Source of the DNA: Comamonadaceae bacterium
Lineage (GTDB): Bacteria > Pseudomonadota > Gammaproteobacteria > Burkholderiales > Burkholderiaceae_C
NCBI GenBank assembly: GCA_027488215.1
Contig: JAIYCB010000012.1
Location: forward strand, 1 to 64,000
Direction of reading: 5' to 3'
Length of the DNA: 64,000 nt
Numbering within the stretch: the stretch's first letter is position 1; every line of letters begins with the position of its first letter. The translations under genes were made by a program, and so were the position numbers. Positions 52,787 through 64,000 of the stretch are shown piece after piece. The notes beneath the pieces were generated by a model that was not told where the DNA came from, made no database searches, and saw only the letters and a program-made list of their open reading frames with translations.

Positions 52787-53065
52787 ATGACCTCTCTGAC
52801 CCTCGAAAGCTTCACCGCCCAGTCCCTTGATGAGGGCTTTGATGAAATCATCGTGCGCGAGTGGGACGCTCACCTCAAACTCGATACCCACACCCACCCA
52901 TTTGATGTCAGCGCGCATGTGGTGAGGGGCGAGTATTGGCTGACGGTGGGAGACGAGATCAAACACCTGAAGGCAGGTGATTTTTTCCGTCTGGCCCGCG
53001 ATGTGCCCCATGCCGAGCTGTATGGACCCGAAGGGGCCACCGTTTGGGTAGCACGTGCCAACTGA
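52787..53065 (+). CDS. Small cupin-domain protein
   Basis: A 92-residue single-domain cupin. The metal-binding pattern is visible: KLDTHTHPFDVSAHVVRGE (two histidines and a glutamate, about 28-47) and LARDVPHAE (fourth ligand histidine about 75). Such small cupins act as dioxygenases, isomerases or ligand sensors; no function can be assigned. The ATG at 52787 starts a compact cupin; the frame extends back to 52736. It is the last chromosomal gene before the prophage junction. Confidence 0.85.
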   Translation: MTSLTLESFTAQSLDEGFDEIIVREWDAHLKLDTHTHPFDVSAHVVRGEYWLTVGDEIKHLKAGDFFRLARDVPHAELYGPEGATVWVARAN

Positions 53066-53139
53066 GTGAGCAAGCAGGCCATCTGCATGAGTGGCGGGCC
53101 CAGGATCGTTCTCCACAGACCAGCCTCAAAGTGGGCAAA

Positions 53140-53176
53140 AAAAATGCCCCCGACTTTTCAGCACGGGGGCATTTTT
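53140..53176. terminator. Strong bidirectional terminator beside the tRNA-Cys fragment
   Basis: A perfect 12-bp inverted repeat AAAAATGCCCCC/GGGGGCATTTTT (53140-53151, 53165-53176) with a 13-base loop. On the minus strand it lies 3 bp after the CCA of the tRNA-Cys fragment and so is the old terminator of that tRNA gene; on the plus strand it can end the cupin transcript. Confidence 0.88.
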
Positions 53177-53179
53177 GTT

Positions 53180-53224
53180 TGGAGGCGCGACCCAGAGTCG
53201 AACTGGGCTCGACGGATTTGCAAT
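53180..53224 (-). pseudogene. 3' fragment of tRNA-Cys (GCA), probable attachment site
   Basis: On the minus strand the sequence from the anticodon loop to the CCA end is a normal tRNA-Cys 3' part: GATTGCAAATCCGT, T arm CCCAGTTCGACTCTGGG, acceptor TCGCGCC, discriminator T and CCA. The 5' half is missing: the bases further upstream (AGGCTTCTGGGGGTCTTCC) do not form a D arm or a matching acceptor strand. Such fragments arise when an integrase inserts an element into the 3' end of a tRNA gene. In this orientation the intact tRNA-Cys should lie at the right end of the element, beyond the window. Confidence 0.75.
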
Positions 53225-53477
53225 CGAGGAAGACCCCCAGAAGCCTTATTTCATGCGGGTTTCAGAGCCATGATTGAACTGCTACGCATGAGCTACGAAT
53301 TTTGTATACCGTAGTATGTAGTGCAACATGACGATTAGCTCGGGTACGTTGATCATTTTCTTACTTCAAACCCTTCAGATTCGGCACCAAATCGTCCTGC
53401 AAAACCTAGTGGTCAAGTATGCGTGAAATATAGAATGGTTCCGAACGTACCTTCTTCTGAGTACGGGAGCAAACCTC

Positions 53478-54449
53478 ATGCAAAAGCAAAACTGGGCAAT
53501 TAGATGCCTGACGGTCATCGTGACAACACTTCACTCAGTGAGCTTTGCCCAAGCACCAGTTATCGATTTACCCGAGAGGCGGTGCACCCTGCAAGAGGTC
53601 ATCGGCCACCTACAATTTCAATCCATTGATAGACGCGCAGCAATAGCGGAACAAACCCTCCCTTTACTGAAGACCGTTGAAGCCCTAAATAACAAAGGCA
53701 AGGATCCAGGGAAACCCATCGGGGAACAACTTTCAATTTCTGACCTAGAAAAATTCAGCCGAGCCAGCCAGCGCATGCAGACGATGCAGTTGACATCACT
53801 GATGGAAAGCCGCCGATTGAGGGACCTGAAAGCCATAGAACGAATGGCCATCTTGGCTGACCAAGAATACCGGTGGACTCAAACACCCAAAGACGGGACT
53901 GACGATGCGGTGTATCACGCGGCGTATCAAGTCATCAAGCTGCTCAGTAAGAACCTAGAGTTGACAGAACCAAAGACAAAACAATGCACGCTTGAATTTG
54001 CATTGCACCAGCAGATGTTGGAACCTACGGCAAAACTCGAACCGTTGTTACCTCAGGTCCCAGTTGCCTCCAGCTTTGTCAAGTCACTAAATTCCAAATA
54101 CAAGATGGACCCCATTGACAGAAAGAGGCTGACAGCTTCCGAACGAGCCAAATACGACGACCTCGAAACCAACTTGTTTTCTGTCTTTAGGAAAAACTAC
54201 GAGTACATGAGGGACATCCAATCGATCAAAGTGATGGCAAACGCCTTAGAGTTGATGCACCAGGCAAGTTTGCAAGACATCGCAATTGGCGGTGGCTCCT
54301 TCGATGCAGTTGGGAAAACAATTCAGCGCAACATTCAAAACAAAGCCTACGACGAGTCGACCCAACTTGCCATGGGGATGTGGACCAAGATTAACGAAAA
54401 GATTCCAAGCCAAGATATAACGGATTGGAAAAAATTAACTTCGAATTAA
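53478..54449 (+). CDS. Exported protein of unknown function, prophage cargo
   Basis: A 323-residue protein with a signal peptide (about 1-25, ending SFAQ-APV). The rest is mostly helical and charged, with long amphipathic stretches (ASQRMQTMQLTSLMESRRLR, FRKNYEYMRDIQSIKVMANA) and two cysteines (about residues 37 and 173). It resembles no family I know. GC content is lower than in the chromosomal genes to the left. It is the first gene inside the left boundary, 253 bp from the tRNA fragment, and 55 bp ahead of the next cargo gene on the same strand. Confidence 0.65.
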   Translation: MQKQNWAIRCLTVIVTTLHSVSFAQAPVIDLPERRCTLQEVIGHLQFQSIDRRAAIAEQTLPLLKTVEALNNKGKDPGKPIGEQLSISDLEKFSRASQRMQTMQLTSLMESRRLRDLKAIERMAILADQEYRWTQTPKDGTDDAVYHAAYQVIKLLSKNLELTEPKTKQCTLEFALHQQMLEPTAKLEPLLPQVPVASSFVKSLNSKYKMDPIDRKRLTASERAKYDDLETNLFSVFRKNYEYMRDIQSIKVMANALELMHQASLQDIAIGGGSFDAVGKTIQRNIQNKAYDESTQLAMGMWTKINEKIPSQDITDWKKLTSN

Positions 54450-54504
54450 CTAGTCGTGGTTGTGAACATTTAATCCGCGAACAAAGTTAAATTAAAGGTA
54501 GAAA

Positions 54505-55926
54505 ATGTTTAATATCTTCGACAACTCACATATAAACAAAAATCCTCTTTTGGCTTCGGAGTTTGTAAAAATTGTCCCGGCTTTTGAACTCGTCAAACAT
54601 ATTATTCAAACAAAAAATGAAGATCGCTCCGAAAAAATAATAAATAATGAAATAATTAAAAATGGAATTTTAAACAGCGACCGCGATGACTTAAAACTTG
54701 TTTTAGCAACATACGGGAAAGTCCTTGAGTTTTGGGATTCAAAAGATTTTTTAAAATTGTATGATAAAGGGACAGCGTTTAAGGCTGCACTTTTTAGCAA
54801 TTCAAACATTGACTGGTATCGGCTAAGTGATTTTGATAAAGTTGAAATTTTACACAAATCAATATTAGCCGATTTCGAAGATGAGACGAATAAAAATCTA
54901 ATATTCGCCATAGCATCAAATCCAAGAATGGATCGCAAGGTAATTGCAAATGCGCTTCTTGGTACAGACGGTTTTGAGGAATTACCCATAACTACTCGGA
55001 TTTTGATAGCTGCAAAATCCATAAAAGTCGAACCAATAGAAGCTGACTACTGGCCAGGTAAGGACTCACCGGATACACATGAGATTTACTTCTCAAATGT
55101 AAATGAGGCCTTTTTGCGAATGGTTAAAGATGCAAAGAGTGGAATGACTGAGGTTGAATTTAACCGATACACGAATGCTTTACTCTGGGAGCTTCCGTAT
55201 GCTCAATTGGATATTAAGTCTGAGTATTGGTTAAGCGCCAATGAAATTGCAAAACTTGAAGAAAAATTTTCGTCTTTTGAATTTATTGAAAAATATTACA
55301 AGATTAGACGCGTAGCACTCTTGAGTGCGTTTCAATTTTTTGAAGATTGGTATGATGTTACTGAAGGGTACCCTGAGACAACAAATCAAATCAATCGCGC
55401 AGTATTTCCAATATTGGCAATAACTTCTTTACTTCGAAATTACTGGCTAAAAGATGATGTCCATGAAATAGTAAATTATCTATTATCATCGCCGTCTCTT
55501 ATTATTAGAGCTGCCGGATATGCAACGATTTTTAATAATATATCCGTAGAATCAGAATCCGATAAAGTATCCGAATTTTTTAACCTTTACCCAGGGAACT
55601 CTCTTGAAAAATGGATTGGCATAACTAGCACACCGGGATTTTGGCTTTGTGATGGCTATGGCTCTAACGCAAAAGTTATTTCAACCCACATGAAATCAAG
55701 TGGTTATCACGAAAAAATTATTAAAGCCAAAGACGATATGTACCAATATTTATTTTTGCACTCATTTTCAGAAAATTTAGAAAAACACAATTCTTTGCCA
55801 AAGTTTGATTTGTTGGAGTCAAAAATTAAGACGCAAGAGTTGGTCGCAACACCATTCACAATTGACGAAAGCAAAATAAATTTGAACAAGCCTGAAAAGA
55901 GTTTTTTAAAAAAATTATTTAATTAA
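54505..55926 (+). CDS. Large AT-rich cargo protein of unknown function
   Basis: A 473-residue cytoplasmic protein without signal peptide or membrane segment. It is predicted mostly helical, with hydrophobic/polar heptad-like patterns and several aromatic-rich motifs (DWYRLSDFDKVEILHKSI, FQFFEDWYDVTEGYPET, TPGFWLCDGYGSNAK), compatible with an alpha-solenoid. The C-terminus is basic (PEKSFLKKLFN). The gene has very low GC, about a third by eye, and favours AAA, ATT and TTT codons, so it came from another source than the tail genes. AAGGT precedes the ATG. Position, composition and lack of relatives make it a candidate for a defence or lysogenic-conversion protein, which is inference only. Confidence 0.7.
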   Translation: MFNIFDNSHINKNPLLASEFVKIVPAFELVKHIIQTKNEDRSEKIINNEIIKNGILNSDRDDLKLVLATYGKVLEFWDSKDFLKLYDKGTAFKAALFSNSNIDWYRLSDFDKVEILHKSILADFEDETNKNLIFAIASNPRMDRKVIANALLGTDGFEELPITTRILIAAKSIKVEPIEADYWPGKDSPDTHEIYFSNVNEAFLRMVKDAKSGMTEVEFNRYTNALLWELPYAQLDIKSEYWLSANEIAKLEEKFSSFEFIEKYYKIRRVALLSAFQFFEDWYDVTEGYPETTNQINRAVFPILAITSLLRNYWLKDDVHEIVNYLLSSPSLIIRAAGYATIFNNISVESESDKVSEFFNLYPGNSLEKWIGITSTPGFWLCDGYGSNAKVISTHMKSSGYHEKIIKAKDDMYQYLFLHSFSENLEKHNSLPKFDLLESKIKTQELVATPFTIDESKINLNKPEKSFLKKLFN

Positions 55927-55969
55927 TTTCTGCAATTTAAATTCAATGGAATAAAAATTTAAAATAACT

Positions 55970-56326
55970 ATGAAGTTCATATTTATTGCCATGGTGGCAT
56001 TACTGACTGGATGCTCGACGAGCCAGATAAACCTCCCATACGAACAACCTGTTGGTTGCAATAGTTCTGACGCAATCGCTCAGTGGAAAGCCCGGATGCC
56101 ACAGTACACGAAAAAAAGAATTCTTTCAGAATTGCTGATGGGCAACCCTGATGCCAGAATTATGGCAACAGGTGGAACTACTAAGACTGTTGAAAGACGG
56201 GATAAAGACAATAAGCAGGTTGAAGTTGTAGTGAACGAACTAGGCAATATAGTTCGTGCAATTGACTCAAGAACAGGTTGCGATATCGGCCCATTGGATT
56301 TTGCCAGGCGAGGCGTTAAATTGTAG
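55970..56326 (+). CDS. Small lipoprotein, prophage cargo
   Basis: A 118-residue protein with a clear lipobox (MKFIFIAMVALLTGC, lipidated cysteine at 15). The mature part is polar and contains two further cysteines (GCNSSD and GCDIG). It may sit in the outer or inner membrane leaflet. Prophage lipoproteins sometimes block superinfection; nothing here shows that directly. It follows the 473-residue gene by 43 bp on the same strand. Confidence 0.65.
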   Translation: MKFIFIAMVALLTGCSTSQINLPYEQPVGCNSSDAIAQWKARMPQYTKKRILSELLMGNPDARIMATGGTTKTVERRDKDNKQVEVVVNELGNIVRAIDSRTGCDIGPLDFARRGVKL

Positions 56327-56482
56327 TCACTGAAGAACCTACTTTACGCCCTTGGGCACAGACAATCGGCTTCGACCGCTGTGTTACTGGCTGACAAACA
56401 ATATTTTAGATAGCGAAAGGCAGGCTTTGACGAATAGTAACTATCCAATCGAAAGCCATGCATCTAAGAATTAAATCGACAG

Positions 56483-57205
56483 TTAAAATAAACTTTTTAC
56501 TTTTTCAGCTTCTTTGGAATTCTGAATTTTTCGTATTGAAATACTTTTAACGCCAACTTCTCCAACACTAATAGATCGTAAACTTGAAGGGCACATGTTT
56601 GAAATCCAATCACTCATTCTAGTCTCAATTCGTGAATCTACTGAAACCTCATCCACCCAAGTCGAAATAATTGAACCGCTTGTTACCTTAAAATTTGCAC
56701 CGTTTCTATAGATACATTGCTCATCTTTTCTATTATTATTTTCTTTACCAGGTCCAAATTTTTCAGCAATCTGTGCTTTCGTTCGATCATACACACTCGA
56801 AACACGCTCGAAACTTATATTAAGGGAAATAAGCTCATCGCCTTTAAATGCAAGAATAACAGAGAACGGCTGTGAGCTTAATGGTGTAGTAATTTTTGCA
56901 TCAAACTGATCAACGCCTTCAACTTGACCACCATGTCTATATATAAAAGTTGTCATAGGCGATGATAAATAAACGCCATCCTTTTCGGTAAGCTGCACAA
57001 TAGCTTCTCTACTCATGCCAATTTTTATTGGCCCAAAACCATTTGGACCCGTAGGAGTCCGAGACGAAGGTGGCGTGAGAGTAGGCGTCACTTCTTTCGT
57101 TTGATTTTGATTTGAATTGGAAAAGCTCTTTGAATCAGGCTGAACTTGTGCTGTACAAATACCAACGGTAAAGCAGAGAACAAACAATGAAAAAGTCTTA
57201 TTCAT
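56483..57205 (-). CDS. Exported protein of unknown function, prophage cargo
   Basis: A 240-residue protein with a signal peptide (MNKTFSLFVLCFTVGICTA, then QVQP). A Ser/Thr/Pro/Asn-rich linker (about 22-55) leads to a domain starting GFGPIKIGMSREAIVQL, a pattern seen in periplasmic proteins of several families, and then beta-rich sequence with three cysteines (in DEQCIYRNG and SNMCPSS). The ATG at 57205 has GAAGGAAA upstream. It is convergent to the lipoprotein gene. Low GC. No confident family. Confidence 0.6.
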   Translation of the reverse strand: MNKTFSLFVLCFTVGICTAQVQPDSKSFSNSNQNQTKEVTPTLTPPSSRTPTGPNGFGPIKIGMSREAIVQLTEKDGVYLSSPMTTFIYRHGGQVEGVDQFDAKITTPLSSQPFSVILAFKGDELISLNISFERVSSVYDRTKAQIAEKFGPGKENNNRKDEQCIYRNGANFKVTSGSIISTWVDEVSVDSRIETRMSDWISNMCPSSLRSISVGEVGVKSISIRKIQNSKEAEKVKSLF

Positions 57206-57719
57206 CAAATTTCCTTCGATCAAATATTTTCATTAAAGAAATTTCCAGTGGTTAAAATTAATCCGAATCGATAACCAAATGGTGTTGACCTCAAAACCCA
57301 GTACCGCCGTTAGGTTCAATTTACCGCTCGTAATACCTGAATCGCTTGGCTGGCAGGTAGCCCAACAGATTGGGCGAATGGTCTCAATTGTACTCATTGC
57401 ACCACGTGGGTGTTGCAACCGATGCAGTTTTAACCATGTGTCCCGAAAACTGATGATCAGTCGAGTTCTGAGAAATCAAGTGTCTAAGCTAATTGCAGGG
57501 CGCAAGTCACGGTCAATCAAAATTGATAGTGCTGGTCAAAGAACCCTCAGGGTCAAAACCTATAGAAATAATTATTTGATGAAAAGATCACGACCCATGC
57601 CGATCAATGATCCAAGCCTGGCCACGGGGAATGTCATCTGCCTGGTGGCAATCGAGACATGAGTCCAGCCCCCGTCCTGTGACTTCAAGAACTCTTTGAT
57701 CAGAAAAGATAGCCCTCCG
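57206..57719. other. Gene-free interval between cargo and lysis genes
   Basis: No gene is supported. A 127-codon open frame on the plus strand (57279-57662) lacks a ribosome site, has unlikely codon use and shows no motif. The interval should hold the promoter of the leftward cargo gene at 57205 and the terminator of the leftward lysis and tail transcript, although no perfect hairpin was found. Confidence 0.45.
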
Positions 57720-58238
57720 TCAACCAGCGTTTAATCTTGCTGCTAATAGGTCAGTTTTAACTACTGAACTCGAACTGGTCCCAAACCAATAGGACAGTAC
57801 GGTCATGGCAATTGCATCCAGCAATCCCAAAACGCGCCCAACGACAAGTTCACTGGCGCCAATAGGCAAGCCAAAAACAAGCACGGCAACCTCCGTTCCC
57901 AGGCATATCGCAAGCAACAGCACCGACAACCAAAACAGCGGCCTTTGTGTGCCTCCGGTGGCGTTGGCTTGACGGGCGCTGTCACGGTCTTTGAAAGCGA
58001 GCTCCGCATACTTAAAGCCGCGCTCGCGCTCGTTTTCTTGGAACTGCAACTCCAGCTGACGCAGCTGGCTGATCTGATCTGCCGTCAGCCGCCCCCCTTC
58101 AATGGCTTTGCGCACGTCCTCCTGCCCTGCCCCACCGACGATGCCGATCAGGGCCGCAACAGCCTCACCGGCGAGCGGTCCCGCCAGTGCGGCTGCCACG
58201 GTGGGAGCCACCGTCTTGAGGGTTTTGAGCCAGTCCAT
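57720..58238 (-). CDS. Holin-like phage membrane protein
   Basis: A 172-residue protein with a hydrophobic N-terminal region (about 8-37, TVAAALAGPLAGEAVAALIGIVGG), a charged helical linker (RQLELQFQENERERGFKYAE) and two C-terminal membrane segments (LFWLSVLLLAICLGTEVAVL and a VVGRVLGLLDAIAMTVLSYW segment). This layout fits the holin family with three membrane segments known from gene transfer agents and phages, which opens the inner membrane for the lysis enzyme. Its ATG overlaps the stop of the peptidase gene (TGATG). Confidence 0.75.
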   Translation of the reverse strand: MDWLKTLKTVAPTVAAALAGPLAGEAVAALIGIVGGAGQEDVRKAIEGGRLTADQISQLRQLELQFQENERERGFKYAELAFKDRDSARQANATGGTQRPLFWLSVLLLAICLGTEVAVLVFGLPIGASELVVGRVLGLLDAIAMTVLSYWFGTSSSSVVKTDLLAARLNAG

Positions 58239-58696
58239 CAAACGATCCCCACGTTGTATCCACTGGCGGTGCGGGTGATGATGCGATTTTGCGGCTTACC
58301 GGGGACCACTAGGCTCACGTGTACCCAGCTGCTGTACTCCAAAATCAGTTGCCCTATCTGCAAACTGTTCACTGCAGAGGCCAAAGCCCGACAAACCATC
58401 TGCGGAGAACCAAACGCCGGAGCCCGAAAGTCCACCGCCATCATGCGTTGATGATCCGACTGCCCTGCCCCACCTATGGCCGTGTTCAGCGCGGGGCATC
58501 GATAGCCGCTGGTGATCACGACCGGGACCTGTTTACCAGCCAAGTCGGACAGGTAAGCTCGAATCCGCTCCATCAGGTGTGCCATCTCCAACGCCTTGTT
58601 GGTCAGTTGCGGCGGCAGGCTGTTGTCGATGTCCAGACGCAAAGCTGTGTCCGAGCGTGTGAACTCTGCCAGGGTGAAATGTGGCGATAACTTCAT
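58238..58696 (-). CDS. Phage endolysin-type peptidase, M15 family
   Basis: A 152-residue protein of the peptidase M15A type that cuts peptidoglycan cross-links. It starts MKLSPHFTLAEFTRSDTA, the typical N-terminus, and shows TSGYRCPALNTAIGG (about 62-76), the zinc ligands in SDHQRMMAVDF (His and Asp, about 80-90) and the third ligand in WVHVSL (about 124-129). It has no signal peptide and therefore needs a holin, encoded directly downstream. The start overlaps the stop of the upstream small gene by four bases. Confidence 0.85.
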   Translation of the reverse strand: MKLSPHFTLAEFTRSDTALRLDIDNSLPPQLTNKALEMAHLMERIRAYLSDLAGKQVPVVITSGYRCPALNTAIGGAGQSDHQRMMAVDFRAPAFGSPQMVCRALASAVNSLQIGQLILEYSSWVHVSLVVPGKPQNRIITRTASGYNVGIV

Positions 58697-58944
58697 TTGC
58701 CAGCACGCTCAATCAAGCGGTCCAATTTGTCATTGATGCGGTCCAGCTGGCTGCGCAGCACGGAGGACGTTTCCTTTTGATAAAGCATCTGCGACTCCAC
58801 CACCGCCACGCGTTGCTCGATCTTGTTGACGTAGACGATGGCTGAAATCGCGACCGTCAGCGTCGTGATCAAGTGCCCCAACTGAATTTCCTTTTTCAGG
58901 TGCCAGCCCTGCAGCCTGCTGGGCTCCGTTGCCTTGTCTGTCAT
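58693..58944 (-). CDS. Small coiled-coil membrane protein of the lysis cassette
   Basis: An 83-residue protein with one membrane segment (about 23-43, LGHLITTLTVAISAIVYV) and a C-terminal coiled coil (RSQLDRINDKLDRLIER). Topology resembles phage spanin or holin-accessory proteins, but no signal peptide or lipobox is present, so it may instead be a pinholin-type or regulator protein. Its end overlaps the peptidase gene by four bases. Confidence 0.65.
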   Translation of the reverse strand: MTDKATEPSRLQGWHLKKEIQLGHLITTLTVAISAIVYVNKIEQRVAVVESQMLYQKETSSVLRSQLDRINDKLDRLIERAGK

Positions 58945-58980
58945 GTCATCCCCTTTTCAGTCAATATGTGGCAAGTCACT

Positions 58981-59826
58981 TCAGCCAATGAAACAATTCA
59001 CTGATCCGTTGTCAAAGAGCTCCGTCCCACCCACGGTAGTCAGGCGCAAGGAGATCAAATCGGTATTGAGACCTTTGTGGCAAACCGTAGTGCCCACAAA
59101 GCCGCTGGCCCCGTCTTCGGCGTAAACGCTGGCGGTGATCGTGTACAGAAAACTGGTGGGGTGTTGGCGCAAGATGGTGATGTTTCCATAACGCTTGGTG
59201 CCTGCTGTAGCGCCCGCCAAGATGGCACCCGCTGTGCCGCTAACCCAGTTGCTGCTGGCACTGCTCGACTCGGTCAACGCACCCACGTAGGAGGTGTTCT
59301 CGATCCCACCAGAATCGCCCAACTGCAACAAGACGCGGCTGGTCCCGCTGGTGGAGACCCCATCAAGGGCCAAAGTGACACGGTTGATGCCCGTGGGGAT
59401 ACCAGAAATATCCACGGAACTACCTGTACCGACGCTGTTGACGCCCAAACCCACCGGTAAGAGCACCGGACCGTGAACCCCGTTGAACCCACCATGCCAC
59501 GCCTTGACGCTGAAGATGGTGTAGGTGCCGGTCACAACCTCAAACATACGGGCGTAGCTTTCTGGCTTGTTCCAGTTGGTTGTTGCAGTGGAACTGCTGA
59601 CCGCTCCTGTTTGCCGGTGCACCACCACATAGTGGGTGTTGCTGGCCGTCAAACTCAAAGTCCCATCCGCAATAGTCAAACCGCTCCACAAGCCGCCGTA
59701 GTAGCCCAACACCAAGCCCGAGCTGGTTGCCGGGTTGCGCGTCAGGCACGATGCCCATTCCAGGGAAGCAAAGTTTTCATTGATTGGGATTTCCGGGCTG
59801 GCCTGGTTGCCACTGATGTTTTGCAT
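58981..59826 (-). CDS. Phage tail-associated receptor-binding-like protein
   Basis: A 281-residue protein directly downstream of the tail tip gene and ahead of the lysis genes, the usual place for tail fibre or receptor-binding proteins. The N-terminus (NISGNQASPEIPINENFASL) is of the type seen in phage tail-end proteins with N-terminal anchors. The rest is Ser-, Thr- and Gly-rich beta-type sequence typical of adhesin domains. The exact role is inference. Confidence 0.65.
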   Translation of the reverse strand: MQNISGNQASPEIPINENFASLEWASCLTRNPATSSGLVLGYYGGLWSGLTIADGTLSLTASNTHYVVVHRQTGAVSSSTATTNWNKPESYARMFEVVTGTYTIFSVKAWHGGFNGVHGPVLLPVGLGVNSVGTGSSVDISGIPTGINRVTLALDGVSTSGTSRVLLQLGDSGGIENTSYVGALTESSSASSNWVSGTAGAILAGATAGTKRYGNITILRQHPTSFLYTITASVYAEDGASGFVGTTVCHKGLNTDLISLRLTTVGGTELFDNGSVNCFIG

Positions 59827-59838
59827 GAAATTTCCTTT

Positions 59839-62800
59839 TTAAATCTTGGCTTGCGCTGGCCAGCCCCGACCCACCGTGACTGACAACTGGTAAACCTTCA
59901 CGTACAAAACCGTTTGCAACGCCCCAAAGTCAGCAATCTGCTGGGCCGCCGTGTAAAGCACTGCATTGGTGCTGGCAGTTACGGTGCGTTTGATGCTGGC
60001 GTAGGTCAAATCGGCGTAAATCTCAACTTCGTACACCTCGGCGTTTTCAGCCAGCGGCGCTGACGGAACCAAGGGGCCAACGAAACGGGTTTCCACCCGA
60101 GTGCGGCGCAGCCACTCAATCGTGATCGCCCCATCGGTTTGCGAAATTTCTTTGTGCAGGTGCACAGGCGCTATTGGTCGCAGGTACAGGCCATAGTTGT
60201 TGAACGAAACGCGCGTGCCGTCGCTGTACTTTTGGTCGGCGCTGACCGCCACCCAGTTTTGCTGTGTTCCCAGTGCAGACAGTGTTTGGGGCAAGAATTG
60301 CGTACCGCCGTTGGTCTGCAACAAAGTGAATTCAGAGCCTGTGAAAGCCACGTAATTCATCGCAAACTCTGATCCGTTGCGGTAGCGCAGCAGATTGCGC
60401 AGACGGTATGTTTTGGCTGCAATCAGTTCAGCTGTCTGAAACTGGAACACCTCGTAGCCCAGCACGGCCAAGTTCAACGTGGGGTCCTTCAGCAAAGCCT
60501 CACGCGTCACACTGGAAAGTGAATCGGCCGCTGTTAACAATACATCCACCGTGCTGCTTTGATCCATCACGCTGCCATTTGTCCAATCGGCCAAGGTGTT
60601 CAGACTCTTGCCCATGATGGCGCGAATTGAATATTGCCCGACGATGGTTGGTGCAGAGCCGTTGTCCGCATACACCGTGCAGCCCGCCCAATCAGTCGCG
60701 TCACTGCCCACGGCCACGTAAACGCCAATCCGATCGGCAAAAGGGTCGAGCACCGTGGGCAAAGTGGTCAAGACACGCATCTGGGTTTTGGCGGGTGGCA
60801 ACACCGTGACTTGTGAGCCATCGGTGATGGCGGCAACTTCGCCACTTTGAACCAGGACACTGGCGTCTTCCTTGACCCCAGTGAAAGTCAAAATGCCATC
60901 GGTTTCTTTGCGCGACAACATCCGCATGTCGTAACTGGAGCCATCCCGATCCACCAAACGCAACACATCATTGGGCTCAAAAGCGTAATACTTGCGCGAC
61001 AAACTGATCGTGACTTGCAAGGCCGACAACACCCTGTTCAGCAGCAACGTCTCCGCAATCTCTTTGGCTTCGTTGGGCGAAAAACTCAAGGGCAGTTGCA
61101 GCGTGGTGGTGTTGTCTTGGGTCCTGACCAATCGATCGGCATATTGCGTATCTGTTTGGTAATCGCGCTGTGGGCAGATGTAGGTAACCGCCAATTTGGC
61201 AGGGATTTCCAGTTCATCCACTTGCGTCAGCGGCATCGGATCGTGATCGCCTTCACGTTTGTCACTGGCGGACATGTCGGTATACGGCACCGTGACCACC
61301 GCATCTTGCCCCCGGTGCCGGAAATACAGCTTGTCGCTCAAATGGCAGTCGAAGAAATAGGCTGTGGCCAATTGCTCCAGCAGCACGCGTACGCTGGTGA
61401 CTTGGCCTGACATCATGCCGTTCACAATCTTGCTGCGCGAATCCAAGTTGCTGGCGTCGTACTGTTCGGGCGTCAGACCAGCACGTGCGCAAAGATTCTC
61501 AACTACTTGCCGCAGGGTTGGAGACGTGGCTGTGCTCAAACCAAAAATCAGCGGGATCGGTTGACTGGCAATGCAGAGGGTTTCGTTTTGACGCAACACG
61601 TTCCAAACGTTGGTTGTCGGATTCCAGCGATAAATCTCTCCACGATCTGAATCAACGATGTAGATGTGTTCGTTGTCCACGTCATAGGCCATGAACTGCA
61701 TGTAAGAGGCAACCACCGGGCTGGTGTATTCGTCCACATAAGTCAGCGTGACACTTGATGGATAAGTGGTCACGGTGGTCACATCAAATTCCAAAACACG
61801 GTTGTCGTATTGCATGCCCAAATAGGCTTTGGTGTTGTCTTGACTGAATACCAAATCACCAGCTTCGTCGGCAACAGTAAAGTCCCCAGGCCACGCCTCT
61901 ACCACTGCGTAGCTGTACATGTCGATGCGCCACAAGGATTCGGTACAAAAGAACAAGAAGTTATCGTCAGCACTGAAGGTGCCACCGCCTGCGTCTTGCG
62001 AAGTGTCACTCGTAACTAGAACATCAGCGATCTTTACGCGAGTGGCTGTGTTGTAGATGTATAGCCTCGTGATGTCATTGCCGAATGGATCGATGAATTG
62101 CATCGGCATCACCAATCGGGTTCCAGCGTGGTTTAAGTACAGTCTCCAAAAGAAATTGGTGGACGCATCTGGGAATGGAATCGTGAAAGCCTCAGTGGCT
62201 GTCTTGGCTGCGGTGTCAATTTCAAAGATGAACGGGTGGTCAACAATCAGGTAGTACACCTTGCTGTAATCGGGTGAAATCACCATCCAACCCGGCACGT
62301 TGTAGGTGTCTTTCATGCCAAGACTGATTCGTGAGAGCGTTGCCCCGGTAAGACGCGACTTTTCAAAAACAGAGAACTCAATGACCGAGCTGTTGCCGTT
62401 TTCGTCAGGCAGGCTTTCGGTGTACGCGGCAACCCAGAAACTGTCCGTCACCGGGTTGTAAACCGCTGCAAACTCAAAGTAGGTCAGGGGCTCTTCGATG
62501 ACTTCACGCGTAGCAGGATCATCGGGAGACAAAAATCCGACCGTACCGCCATTGACGCCGCTGACCCCGCGAACACCAAAATCTGAGGTCAACCAGACCG
62601 ATCCGGCGGTTACACCTTGAGTGCAGACTTCAAAGGTCAAATTGGGTAACGCACCAGATGTTCCAAGCCCGAAGTTTTTGAAAAAGATGGAGCCACGGCC
62701 CCGGTAGGCTGGCGCATTAGGATGACCATCGGGATCGGGCATCTGGTTCGCAGCACCCGTGTACACCGTCATGCGCGTCCAAGCGTTGGTGTTATCGCTG

Positions 62801-63234
62801 GCATCGACCGAACTGCCTTCGGCGGCATTGGATTTGTTGTAGATCAGCTTGCCGTTGGCCCAAATACGGGTTACATCGAAAATTTCCACATCGGTCAGCA
62901 AGAAGTGCAGATCCACTTCGTAGGTGTACGTGGTTTGGCTCACGCCTCCCCCACCCTTCCCGCCCTGCTCTGTGGTGGTGGCAATTTCGCGCTTTTCGCT
63001 TGCCCAGATCAACTGACCCGACATGCGCATCGTGCCTTGCAAATACGGGATGGGGGAGCCATAAGCGCTGCTGGAGACCGTCAAGTCTTCTATGCGCGGA
63101 CCCGAGATGTTTTGATCTGGGGCAAAGGCCATGCCCAACGCATTGCCTGCCATCCAGCCCCATGAAGCACCCGTGGTGCCGCCCACGGCAAAGCCCACCG
63201 CTGCTCCAGCGGCCGAAATGATGAGTTGGGACAT
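59839..63234 (-). CDS. Phage tail tip protein (gpJ/GTA host-specificity type) with central propeller-like insertion
   Basis: A 1131-residue tail tip or baseplate hub protein. The N-terminus has a glycine-rich hydrophobic region (AAGAAVGFAVGGTTGASWGW) and then SGPRIEDLTVSSSAYGSPIP, typical for gene-transfer-agent and siphophage tail tip proteins. The hub domain continues to about residue 205 (PAYRGRGSIFFKNFGLG, LPNLTFEV) and resumes near 570 (TLRQVVENLCARAGLTPEQY). Between them lies an insertion with repeated beta-propeller-like segments (YNPVTDSFWVAAY, SPDYSKVYYLIVDHP, SADDNFLFFCTESLWRID, SQDNTKAYLGMQYDNRVLEF). The C-terminal part (from about 930) looks like fibronectin-type or attachment domains. 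The start overlaps the stop of the NlpC/P60 gene (TGATG). Confidence 0.85.
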   Translation of the reverse strand: MSQLIISAAGAAVGFAVGGTTGASWGWMAGNALGMAFAPDQNISGPRIEDLTVSSSAYGSPIPYLQGTMRMSGQLIWASEKREIATTTEQGGKGGGGVSQTTYTYEVDLHFLLTDVEIFDVTRIWANGKLIYNKSNAAEGSSVDASDNTNAWTRMTVYTGAANQMPDPDGHPNAPAYRGRGSIFFKNFGLGTSGALPNLTFEVCTQGVTAGSVWLTSDFGVRGVSGVNGGTVGFLSPDDPATREVIEEPLTYFEFAAVYNPVTDSFWVAAYTESLPDENGNSSVIEFSVFEKSRLTGATLSRISLGMKDTYNVPGWMVISPDYSKVYYLIVDHPFIFEIDTAAKTATEAFTIPFPDASTNFFWRLYLNHAGTRLVMPMQFIDPFGNDITRLYIYNTATRVKIADVLVTSDTSQDAGGGTFSADDNFLFFCTESLWRIDMYSYAVVEAWPGDFTVADEAGDLVFSQDNTKAYLGMQYDNRVLEFDVTTVTTYPSSVTLTYVDEYTSPVVASYMQFMAYDVDNEHIYIVDSDRGEIYRWNPTTNVWNVLRQNETLCIASQPIPLIFGLSTATSPTLRQVVENLCARAGLTPEQYDASNLDSRSKIVNGMMSGQVTSVRVLLEQLATAYFFDCHLSDKLYFRHRGQDAVVTVPYTDMSASDKREGDHDPMPLTQVDELEIPAKLAVTYICPQRDYQTDTQYADRLVRTQDNTTTLQLPLSFSPNEAKEIAETLLLNRVLSALQVTISLSRKYYAFEPNDVLRLVDRDGSSYDMRMLSRKETDGILTFTGVKEDASVLVQSGEVAAITDGSQVTVLPPAKTQMRVLTTLPTVLDPFADRIGVYVAVGSDATDWAGCTVYADNGSAPTIVGQYSIRAIMGKSLNTLADWTNGSVMDQSSTVDVLLTAADSLSSVTREALLKDPTLNLAVLGYEVFQFQTAELIAAKTYRLRNLLRYRNGSEFAMNYVAFTGSEFTLLQTNGGTQFLPQTLSALGTQQNWVAVSADQKYSDGTRVSFNNYGLYLRPIAPVHLHKEISQTDGAITIEWLRRTRVETRFVGPLVPSAPLAENAEVYEVEIYADLTYASIKRTVTASTNAVLYTAAQQIADFGALQTVLYVKVYQLSVTVGRGWPAQAKI

Positions 63235-63665
63235 CAGTGAACCCCTGGAAGTTGGAATGCTGCGACAAAGAACATTGCTTTGCTGAACATGAGCCGCTGC
63301 TCGACCACCTTGCCGTAGGCTGAGGCTGCGTGGATGATGCTGAAACCGCCATGCCGGTAATCACCGATGATTCCGAAATGCTGTGGCAGCTTGTCAAAGC
63401 CCACCACCACGACGTCACCGATCTGCAGCTGATCCAACGGAACCCATGTCATCTTTTCTCTGGCCATGGCCATCAGTGCACGGCCATCGGGATAGCGGCT
63501 GTAGCCGGTTACATCAAAGTCCTGCTGCACCATACCCAGCTCACGGGCCACACCAATGACCAGACCAATGCAATCAACCCCAACTGCTTTTAAGCGGGCC
63601 TGGTGATGAAAAGGTGTACCCAACCAGTCGCGAGCAGCTGCGACAACTCTTGTGCGATCGGTCAT
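63234..63665 (-). CDS. Tail-associated NlpC/P60-type peptidoglycan peptidase
   Basis: A 143-residue cysteine peptidase of the phage cell-wall peptidase type (TIGR02219-like). The catalytic cysteine is in GVDCIGLVIG (about residue 32) and the histidine in LPQHFGIIGD (about 97), with the polar third residue in the following SIIHAASAYG segment. It precedes the tail tip protein, the usual order in siphophages, and probably cuts the murein during DNA entry. Start and stop codons overlap those of its neighbours by TGATG. Confidence 0.88.
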   Translation of the reverse strand: MTDRTRVVAAARDWLGTPFHHQARLKAVGVDCIGLVIGVARELGMVQQDFDVTGYSRYPDGRALMAMAREKMTWVPLDQLQIGDVVVVGFDKLPQHFGIIGDYRHGGFSIIHAASAYGKVVEQRLMFSKAMFFVAAFQLPGVH

Positions 63666-64000
63666 CAGGATCCCCCATTGCTGGAAGTGGTGCCCCGCCG
63701 ACCCACAATGGCCGTGATCTTGTCGATGCCCGGCACATGAGGCTCACCCTGAAAATTCAAGCCGTTGTTGAATTTGTCTATGCAGTCTTCGAGATAGCGC
63801 TTTTTGCAGCCAGCTGTGGCCACAAAATAATCACCCACCTCGGGTTGCACGATCAAGGGCAGTTGCAGGGTGAAGGTGTTGCTGGTGTGGCTTTTCACCA
63901 CCGCTCGCATTTGGTTGCAAGTGCCGCCTATGAAACCCACCGTCCCGTTTTCAAAAAAACCATCGGGCATCGGGTTGAAATCTTCGATGAAGGTCTGTTT
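63665..64000 (-). CDS. Phage BR0599/DUF2163-type tail protein, C-terminal part
   Basis: The frame is open to the right edge, so only the last 111 residues are seen. The C-terminal signature of the phage BR0599 family is present: a cysteine-containing TAGCKKRYLEDCIDKFNNGL followed by NFQGEPHVPGID. Family members lie between the tail tape measure or minor tail genes and the NlpC/P60 gene in siphophages and gene transfer agents. Function: tail tip assembly, inferred from position. Confidence 0.85.
   Translation of the reverse strand, partial: KQTFIEDFNPMPDGFFENGTVGFIGGTCNQMRAVVKSHTSNTFTLQLPLIVQPEVGDYFVATAGCKKRYLEDCIDKFNNGLNFQGEPHVPGIDKITAIVGRRGTTSSNGGS

Follow-up and report, generated by a model that had tools for sequence, protein, structure and literature searches.

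A cargo block at the edge of a Comamonadaceae prophage includes a member of an unnamed family of exported-looking phage proteins

The analyzed window, a stretch of 64,000 nucleotides from a Comamonadaceae bacterium (GenBank assembly GCA_027488215.1, contig JAIYCB010000012.1), contains one end of a prophage with a block of four open reading frames (ORFs), here called O1 to O4 (Table 1). In a preliminary description these genes had been singled out as unassigned cargo and as the best candidate in the window for an undescribed system. Our analysis indicates that the block very likely consists of cargo genes, also known as morons, and that it has probably grown by the accretion of separately acquired morons at the edge of a temperate-phage genome, where the block is flanked by late lysis genes on one side and the attachment site on the other. 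The solid gain is the unnamed family of exported-looking phage proteins represented by O4; O1, O2 and O3 look like ordinary, uncharacterised viral cargo and not like an established defence system of a new kind.

The prophage, 42,695 bp in length, lies between the two copies of an identical 48-bp direct repeat, one found in the window (Table 1) and the other at G000:C49:95825-95872. The far copy forms the 3' part of an intact tRNA-Cys gene, indicating that the element was inserted in tRNA-Cys. An integrase gene (phrog_1, E value 9.8e-24) is located at the far prophage end, and genes for an exonuclease, an annealing protein, a DNA polymerase, a primase-like protein and a terminase are situated between the two ends. 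The prophage is thus real and represents a temperate phage genome, and O1 to O4 can be placed just inside its end because of the bounding repeat and the integrase. Endolysin and tail genes adjoin the block. Hence, its earlier placement between the attachment site and the lysis genes is right, as judged by the repeat, the tRNA-Cys and the endolysin neighbour, and its description as cargo at a prophage edge is supported by the bounding repeat, the integrase and the low content of guanine plus cytosine (GC). An Rfam scan over positions 52900-58300 gave 0 matches.

All four ORFs were found where they had been described, with gaps of 55 bp between O1 and O2 and 43 bp between O2 and O3, and O1 to O3 indeed oppose the late genes. 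When the stretch of each gene was simulated with a first-order Markov model, frames reaching the length of the gene were absent from all 200 simulations each for O1, O2 and O4 and from all 1000 simulations for O3. Intact frames of such lengths, well beyond chance, speak against the view that O1 to O3 are host or other mobile DNA captured at an imprecise excision without any phage-related role, a view that draws on their position next to the attachment site and on the lack of phage relatives in phage records and viral contigs. Moreover, no second copy is present in the bacterium's own genome and O2 occurs in none of the three congeners sampled, and we regard such a capture as improbable.

The low GC content reported for the block is confirmed for whole genes, with values of 0.475 (O1), 0.340 (O2), 0.445 (O3) and 0.371 (O4), whereas the five lysis and tail ORFs closest to the block have 0.54-0.58. 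At third codon positions (GC3), O2, O3 and O4 (0.31, 0.42 and 0.25) have lower values than any of the 29 leftward prophage ORFs compared, which comprise at least 120 amino acids each (0.49-0.82), whereas O1 with 0.56 is inside this range. A composition unlike that of the phage core, which is regarded as one mark of morons, is therefore seen by GC3 for O2, O3 and O4 but not for O1. The GC3 of O1 differs clearly from that of O2 (z 7.2) and O4 (z 7.3), while O2 and O4 are closer to each other (z 1.5), and the contrast between O1 and O2 argues against one shared origin.

By its sequence, O4 belongs to a small, unnamed, phage-carried family of exported-looking proteins with two invariant cysteines. 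Relatives were found at seven distinct loci, L005 (=L012), L006 (=L015, L018), L010 (=L019), L011, L013, L014 (=L017) and L016, after duplicates had been merged by shared sequence, shared contig or contig name; the underlying scans of viral and genome collections need short conserved peptides and miss distant members. In the 8-row alignment A4 the relatives are 27-35% identical to O4, and the two cysteines are among 22 invariant columns. The motif RKDEQC is present in seven of the eight rows and is extended to RKDEQCIYRNG in four, while L013 carries SKEEDCIYRNG. The named hosts of the relatives are Paraburkholderia and Acidovorax. No Pfam family reached its cut-off with O4 (DUF5348 and Peptidase_MA_2 scored below it) or with the relatives L005, L006, L010 and L013. 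A further candidate member, L034, from the 250-genome sample (E value 9e-4, 20 bits), was left out; its match lies within a 957-codon frame.

An AlphaFold2 model of O4 reached a mean predicted local distance difference test score (pLDDT) of 78.7 and was confident over residues ~51-230, with 73-97 per ten-residue block. Just two structures in BFVD matched this model at an E value of 0.001 or better, and both are phage proteins, namely a lipoprotein of Erwinia phage Midgardsormr38 (A0A5Q2F5G3, E value 3.7e-5) and a protein of Siphoviridae sp. ctmwf23 (A0A8S5T817, E value 5.9e-4), each with a match probability of 1.00. They resemble O4 at the fold level; in contrast, their sequence identity is low (12 and 11%), the structural scores given below are modest, and no function is given for either protein. 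Midgardsormr38 is a temperate phage (PMC7317114); the place of its lipoprotein gene in the phage genome was not found in the literature consulted.

The genomic surroundings of the O4 relatives are variable. A phage repressor-like gene adjoins the relative in four of the seven loci, encoding phrog_12107 in L005, L006 and L014 (E values 6e-8 to 2e-4) and matching phrog_35 and phrog_4 in L011. In L013 the relative belongs to a tail operon and ends 53 bp before the tape-measure gene, and in L019 it adjoins genes for a UmuD-like S24 peptidase and a UmuC-like polymerase. The relative in the L013 operon has a GC content of 0.418 versus 0.675 and 0.631 in its flanks, a contrast in keeping with a moron that resides within a late operon. 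The same gene is thus found at different phage places, on the repressor side in four loci, in a tail operon in one and at the late end in the present prophage, which is another mark of morons and suggests that O4 behaves as a free-standing phage passenger gene.

Table 1. Positions of the four block genes and of neighbouring features in the window.
Feature	Position	Strand	Basis
O1, 323 amino acids, predicted exported protein	53478..54449	+	ORF; signal-like N-terminus
O2, 473 amino acids, predicted cytosolic, acidic (isoelectric point 5.4)	54505..55926	+	ORF; GC 34%
O3, 118 amino acids, predicted lipoprotein (lipobox LTGC, Cys15)	55970..56326	+	ORF
O4, 240 amino acids from ATG at 57205, predicted exported, RKDEQC family	56483..57205	-	ORF; relatives
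Left attachment site (3' portion of tRNA-Cys)	53178..53225	no strand	One copy of 48-bp direct repeat
Lysis-side neighbour, phrog_1544	57720..58241	-	PHROGs match
Endolysin, M15 peptidase	58238..58696	-	Pfam Peptidase_M15_3; phrog_894

Several observations weigh against the interpretation of the block as lysogeny cargo of the moron type. Five of the seven O4 relatives were taken from a virus-only contig collection, so that phage contexts were favoured from the beginning. Among 84,980 species genomes in another collection, four O4 loci were found, two of them shared with the viral contigs, one situated by umuDC-like genes, and L016, in which scans of four neighbours gave no informative match and no recognised phage neighbour. 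Apart from L013, the GC content of the relatives (6 of 7) stays within 0.09 of their flanks, hence deviating GC is not a trait of the O4 family. The template modelling (TM) scores of the two BFVD matches are modest (0.34/0.42 and 0.43/0.52), and no PDB fold matched the O4 model at an E value of 0.001. Promoter-like sites in the block are not in excess, with 7 found versus 9.3 expected from shuffles. Finally, O4 is co-directional with the late genes and located 514 bp downstream of the last lysis-side ORF, which makes late expression possible.

This last point, together with the tail-operon position of the relative in L013, could also mean that O4 has an accessory role in lysis or virion assembly and is a late gene instead of lysogeny cargo. 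However, most relatives stand beside repressor-like genes, no lysis or structural family in Pfam, PHROGs or NCBIfam matched O4, and its changing position suggests a free-standing gene. A late role is hence rated as distinctly unlikely, and we prefer to see O4 as a moron.

In contrast to O4, the genes O1, O2 and O3 remained orphans, a term that applies within the present searches, the coverage of which was uneven and lowest for O3. All four proteins were compared with the family libraries Pfam, PHROGs, PADLOC and NCBIfam, with PDB sequences (in the case of O4 also as an alignment) and with phage records, while plasmid records were searched for O1, O2 and O4. Viral contigs were scanned for O1, O2, O3 and the inner parts of O1 and O2, and genome contigs for O2; these scans rely on short exact peptides, so that distant homologues would escape them. 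Samples of whole genomes, which overlap and each include the bacterium's own genome, comprised 299, 369 and 249 genomes for O2, 150, 274 and 130 for O1, 120 for O3, and 150 plus 250 (the latter with alignment A3) for O4, adding up to 1,992 genome look-ups across the four genes with overlap. None of the four proteins scored above any curated cut-off in the family libraries, confirming the earlier statement that no known family is represented. Phage records gave no match to any of the four and plasmid records none to O1, O2 or O4. PADLOC returned 0 families for all four proteins and thus no sign of known anti-phage defence. Topic searches of the literature revealed nothing on these proteins; no search by their sequences or motif was made.

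For O1, no match was obtained in Pfam, PHROGs, PADLOC, phage and plasmid records, viral contigs, PDB sequences and the 150-genome sample, and its inner part had no relative in viral contigs. A FlgD model of NCBIfam (E value 0.01) reached 16.3 bits versus a cut-off of 124. One apparent relative, L020 (E value 4.6e-4, one of 274 genomes), lies inside the frame of a UmuC-like polymerase (Pfam IMS) and was not recovered by tblastn at an E value of 20. Weak matches in five genomes of the 130-genome sample (E values 0.016-0.072) mostly cover residues 25-66 (4 of 5), and tblastn aligned residues 28-65 with L058, L059 and L061 at 42% identity over 38 residues. The frames scanned at L058 and L061 encode exodeoxyribonuclease V gamma (RecC). 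Kinship with RecC was rejected, because the matches are limited to one family and one short segment and were taken as local resemblance, which is probably due to chance. A resemblance to RecC would also be odd for O1, because the protein looks exported. At the sequence level O1 has no convincing relative, its weak matches being chance-level or local.

O2 did not match anything in Pfam, PADLOC, phage and plasmid records, viral contigs, genome contigs or the samples of 299 and 369 genomes, nor did its inner part have a relative in viral contigs. Its weak matches point to one family over one segment (phrog_1209, E value 0.11; GrcA model, 0.03; GrcA structure, 0.44). Three weakly matching genomes of the 249-genome sample (E values 0.05-0.09) and L022, which carries the Pfam Gly_radical domain, likewise fall under this family and segment. 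Further weak matches in this sample were L021 (E value 0.008) and L023 (0.05). The segment concerned, residues 309-359 (LIIRAAGYATIFNN), resembles a glycyl-radical loop. However, GrcA scored 14.6 bits versus a cut-off of 170 and the likeness to glycyl-radical frames is restricted to these residues, hence the assignment as a glycyl radical protein was rejected and the likeness is probably due to chance or a helical repeat. The single-sequence structure model of O2 had a pLDDT of 35 and was left out of the fold search; perhaps the protein is helical. No convincing relative of O2 was apparent.

Likewise, O3 had no match in Pfam, PADLOC, phage records and viral contigs. Its weak PHROGs and NCBIfam matches are mostly N-terminal, such as phrog_1754 (E value 0.0037 over residues 1-30). 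Rz-like spanins matched residues 2-53, 2-41 and 1-18 (PHROGs, E values 0.017, 0.27 and 0.41) with no match spanning the protein, and the Cor family matched only the first 18 residues (PHROGs, E value 0.11). The conjugation lipoproteins TraV (16.1 bits versus 44.75) and TrbK (14.8 versus 23) as well as LvhB7 and Ala-zipper lipoproteins scored under their NCBIfam cut-offs, and all these candidates were rejected. The PDB sequences gave N-acetylmuramic acid 6-phosphate etherase with an E value of 0.38. Weak matches in six genomes of the 120-genome sample had E values of 0.02-0.1; the one looked at, L030, was dismissed, as its match comprises 31 residues and its frame is overlapped by a longer frame. 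A frame at L030:1925-2851, in a different genome from the same bacterial family, consists of a regularly repeated unit and likely represents a CRISPR-type array (judged by eye). We therefore see no convincing relative of O3 among the sequences searched.

These results bear on the question whether the block represents one undescribed system, as had been proposed. No match to O1, O2 or O3 was found in the flanking DNA examined beside any of the seven distinct O4 relatives, hence O4 is best read as an independent moron, and the co-occurrence expected for a conserved system of all four genes did not materialize. For O1 to O3 themselves no co-occurrence was seen, as none of them has a convincing relative in the searches made. 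The proposal is only partly supported: O1 to O3 are orphans and the O4 family is unnamed, but the seven loci and the GC3 contrast between O1 and O2 (z 7.2) speak against the four genes as a unit.

A smaller version would be that O1 to O3 form one three-component, envelope-spanning anti-phage system of an exported, a cytosolic and a lipoprotein component, with O4 as an unrelated neighbour. The genes share one strand, their spacing allows a single transcript, and their predicted locations differ and are complementary. However, the lack of convincing relatives means that there is no conserved linkage in the collections searched, O1 and O2 differ in GC3 as stated above, and none of the three proteins matched PADLOC. 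Furthermore, one promoter-like site occupies the O2-O3 gap at 55936-55965, although such sites are no commoner than in shuffles. The terminator scan found 9 sites versus 5.2 expected (standard deviation 2.2), none of them between genes. We consider such a three-gene system unlikely. Still more demanding, and highly doubtful, is the combination in which O1 to O3 form an undescribed trans-envelope anti-phage system with periplasmic, cytosolic and outer-membrane lipoprotein parts and O4 at the same time stands for a family of periplasmic exclusion factors, likewise undescribed, whose genes are located near the lysogeny-control or late genes of temperate phages.

Returning to separately acquired morons, the products may be envelope-directed. 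Signal-like N-terminal stretches in O1 and O4 and the lipobox of O3 were identified by eye plus hydropathy, in agreement with the earlier statement that three products look exported or lipid-anchored. The genes would be expressed from the prophage and the exported products would act in the envelope of the host. In the case of O4, expression in lysogeny is suggested by the repressor genes that frequently adjoin its relatives. The putatively periplasmic O4, and perhaps O1 and O3, could then change a step at the cell surface or in the periplasm that incoming phages use, or the envelope might be converted in some other way. Action of at least one product in the envelope is reasonably likely. Since small phage products that are exported are well known to act in superinfection exclusion, this is the best single guess, but it is a tentative one, a working guess that no result here favours over other envelope changes. 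Examples of such exclusion are given in PMC11436027. If O4-type proteins do change the lysogen envelope, the known means of lysogenic conversion would be extended by an unnamed family that has a sharp motif and for which a fold has been modelled. O1 to O3, as judged from the searches, are candidates for something new owing to their lack of convincing relatives.

Some further observations concern the rest of the prophage. Around the 23 loci with relatives of the endolysin, for 13 of which ORFs were listed, the DNA examined had no match to O1 to O4. The nearest of them, on a metagenomic viral contig (L035), is 81% identical to window positions 58006-64000 and represents a near relative of the prophage; the contig stops just before the cargo block. 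The tail protein at 59839-63234 has matches in 118 phage records, all below 60% identity, and among the 20 matches listed, 11 Rhodobacter phage rows are gene transfer agent (GTA) TIM-barrel-like proteins by annotation. Near the integrase, two ORFs of 457 amino acids (L004:12701-14075 = G000:C49:92700-94073) and 189 amino acids (L004:11808-12378 = G000:C49:91807-92376) lack Pfam, PHROG and PADLOC matches and have, with 0.50 and 0.49, the lowest GC3 of the 29 leftward ORFs compared; they make the other end of the prophage a second candidate site for cargo. An ORF of 165 amino acids at L004:316-813 (G000:C49:80315-80812, +) opposes the late-gene strand, has an internal signal-like start (by eye) and likewise gave no Pfam, PHROG or PADLOC match.

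Among known systems, T5 Llp and HK97 gp15 are envelope superinfection-exclusion proteins and can be compared with the block together with P22 SieA, TP-J34 Ltp and Cor. All are phage-encoded proteins located in the membrane or at the cell surface, and the predicted lipoprotein O3 is alike in this respect. However, they show no significant sequence match to O1 to O4, and no relation to a tested exclusion protein was significant for the four proteins in PHROGs, Pfam, NCBIfam and PADLOC or for O4 by PDB fold. SieA is an inner-membrane protein (PMC11436027), unlike O1 to O4, in which no 19-residue window exceeds 1.6 on the Kyte-Doolittle scale. With regard to the morons or lysogenic-conversion genes of prophages, O1 to O3 differ by being without convincing relatives; the block is nevertheless alike in its position between lysis genes and attachment site, its deviating GC and the absence of any sign of a phage-core role, and the O4 family, as is typical of such genes, is likewise found at different places in other phages.

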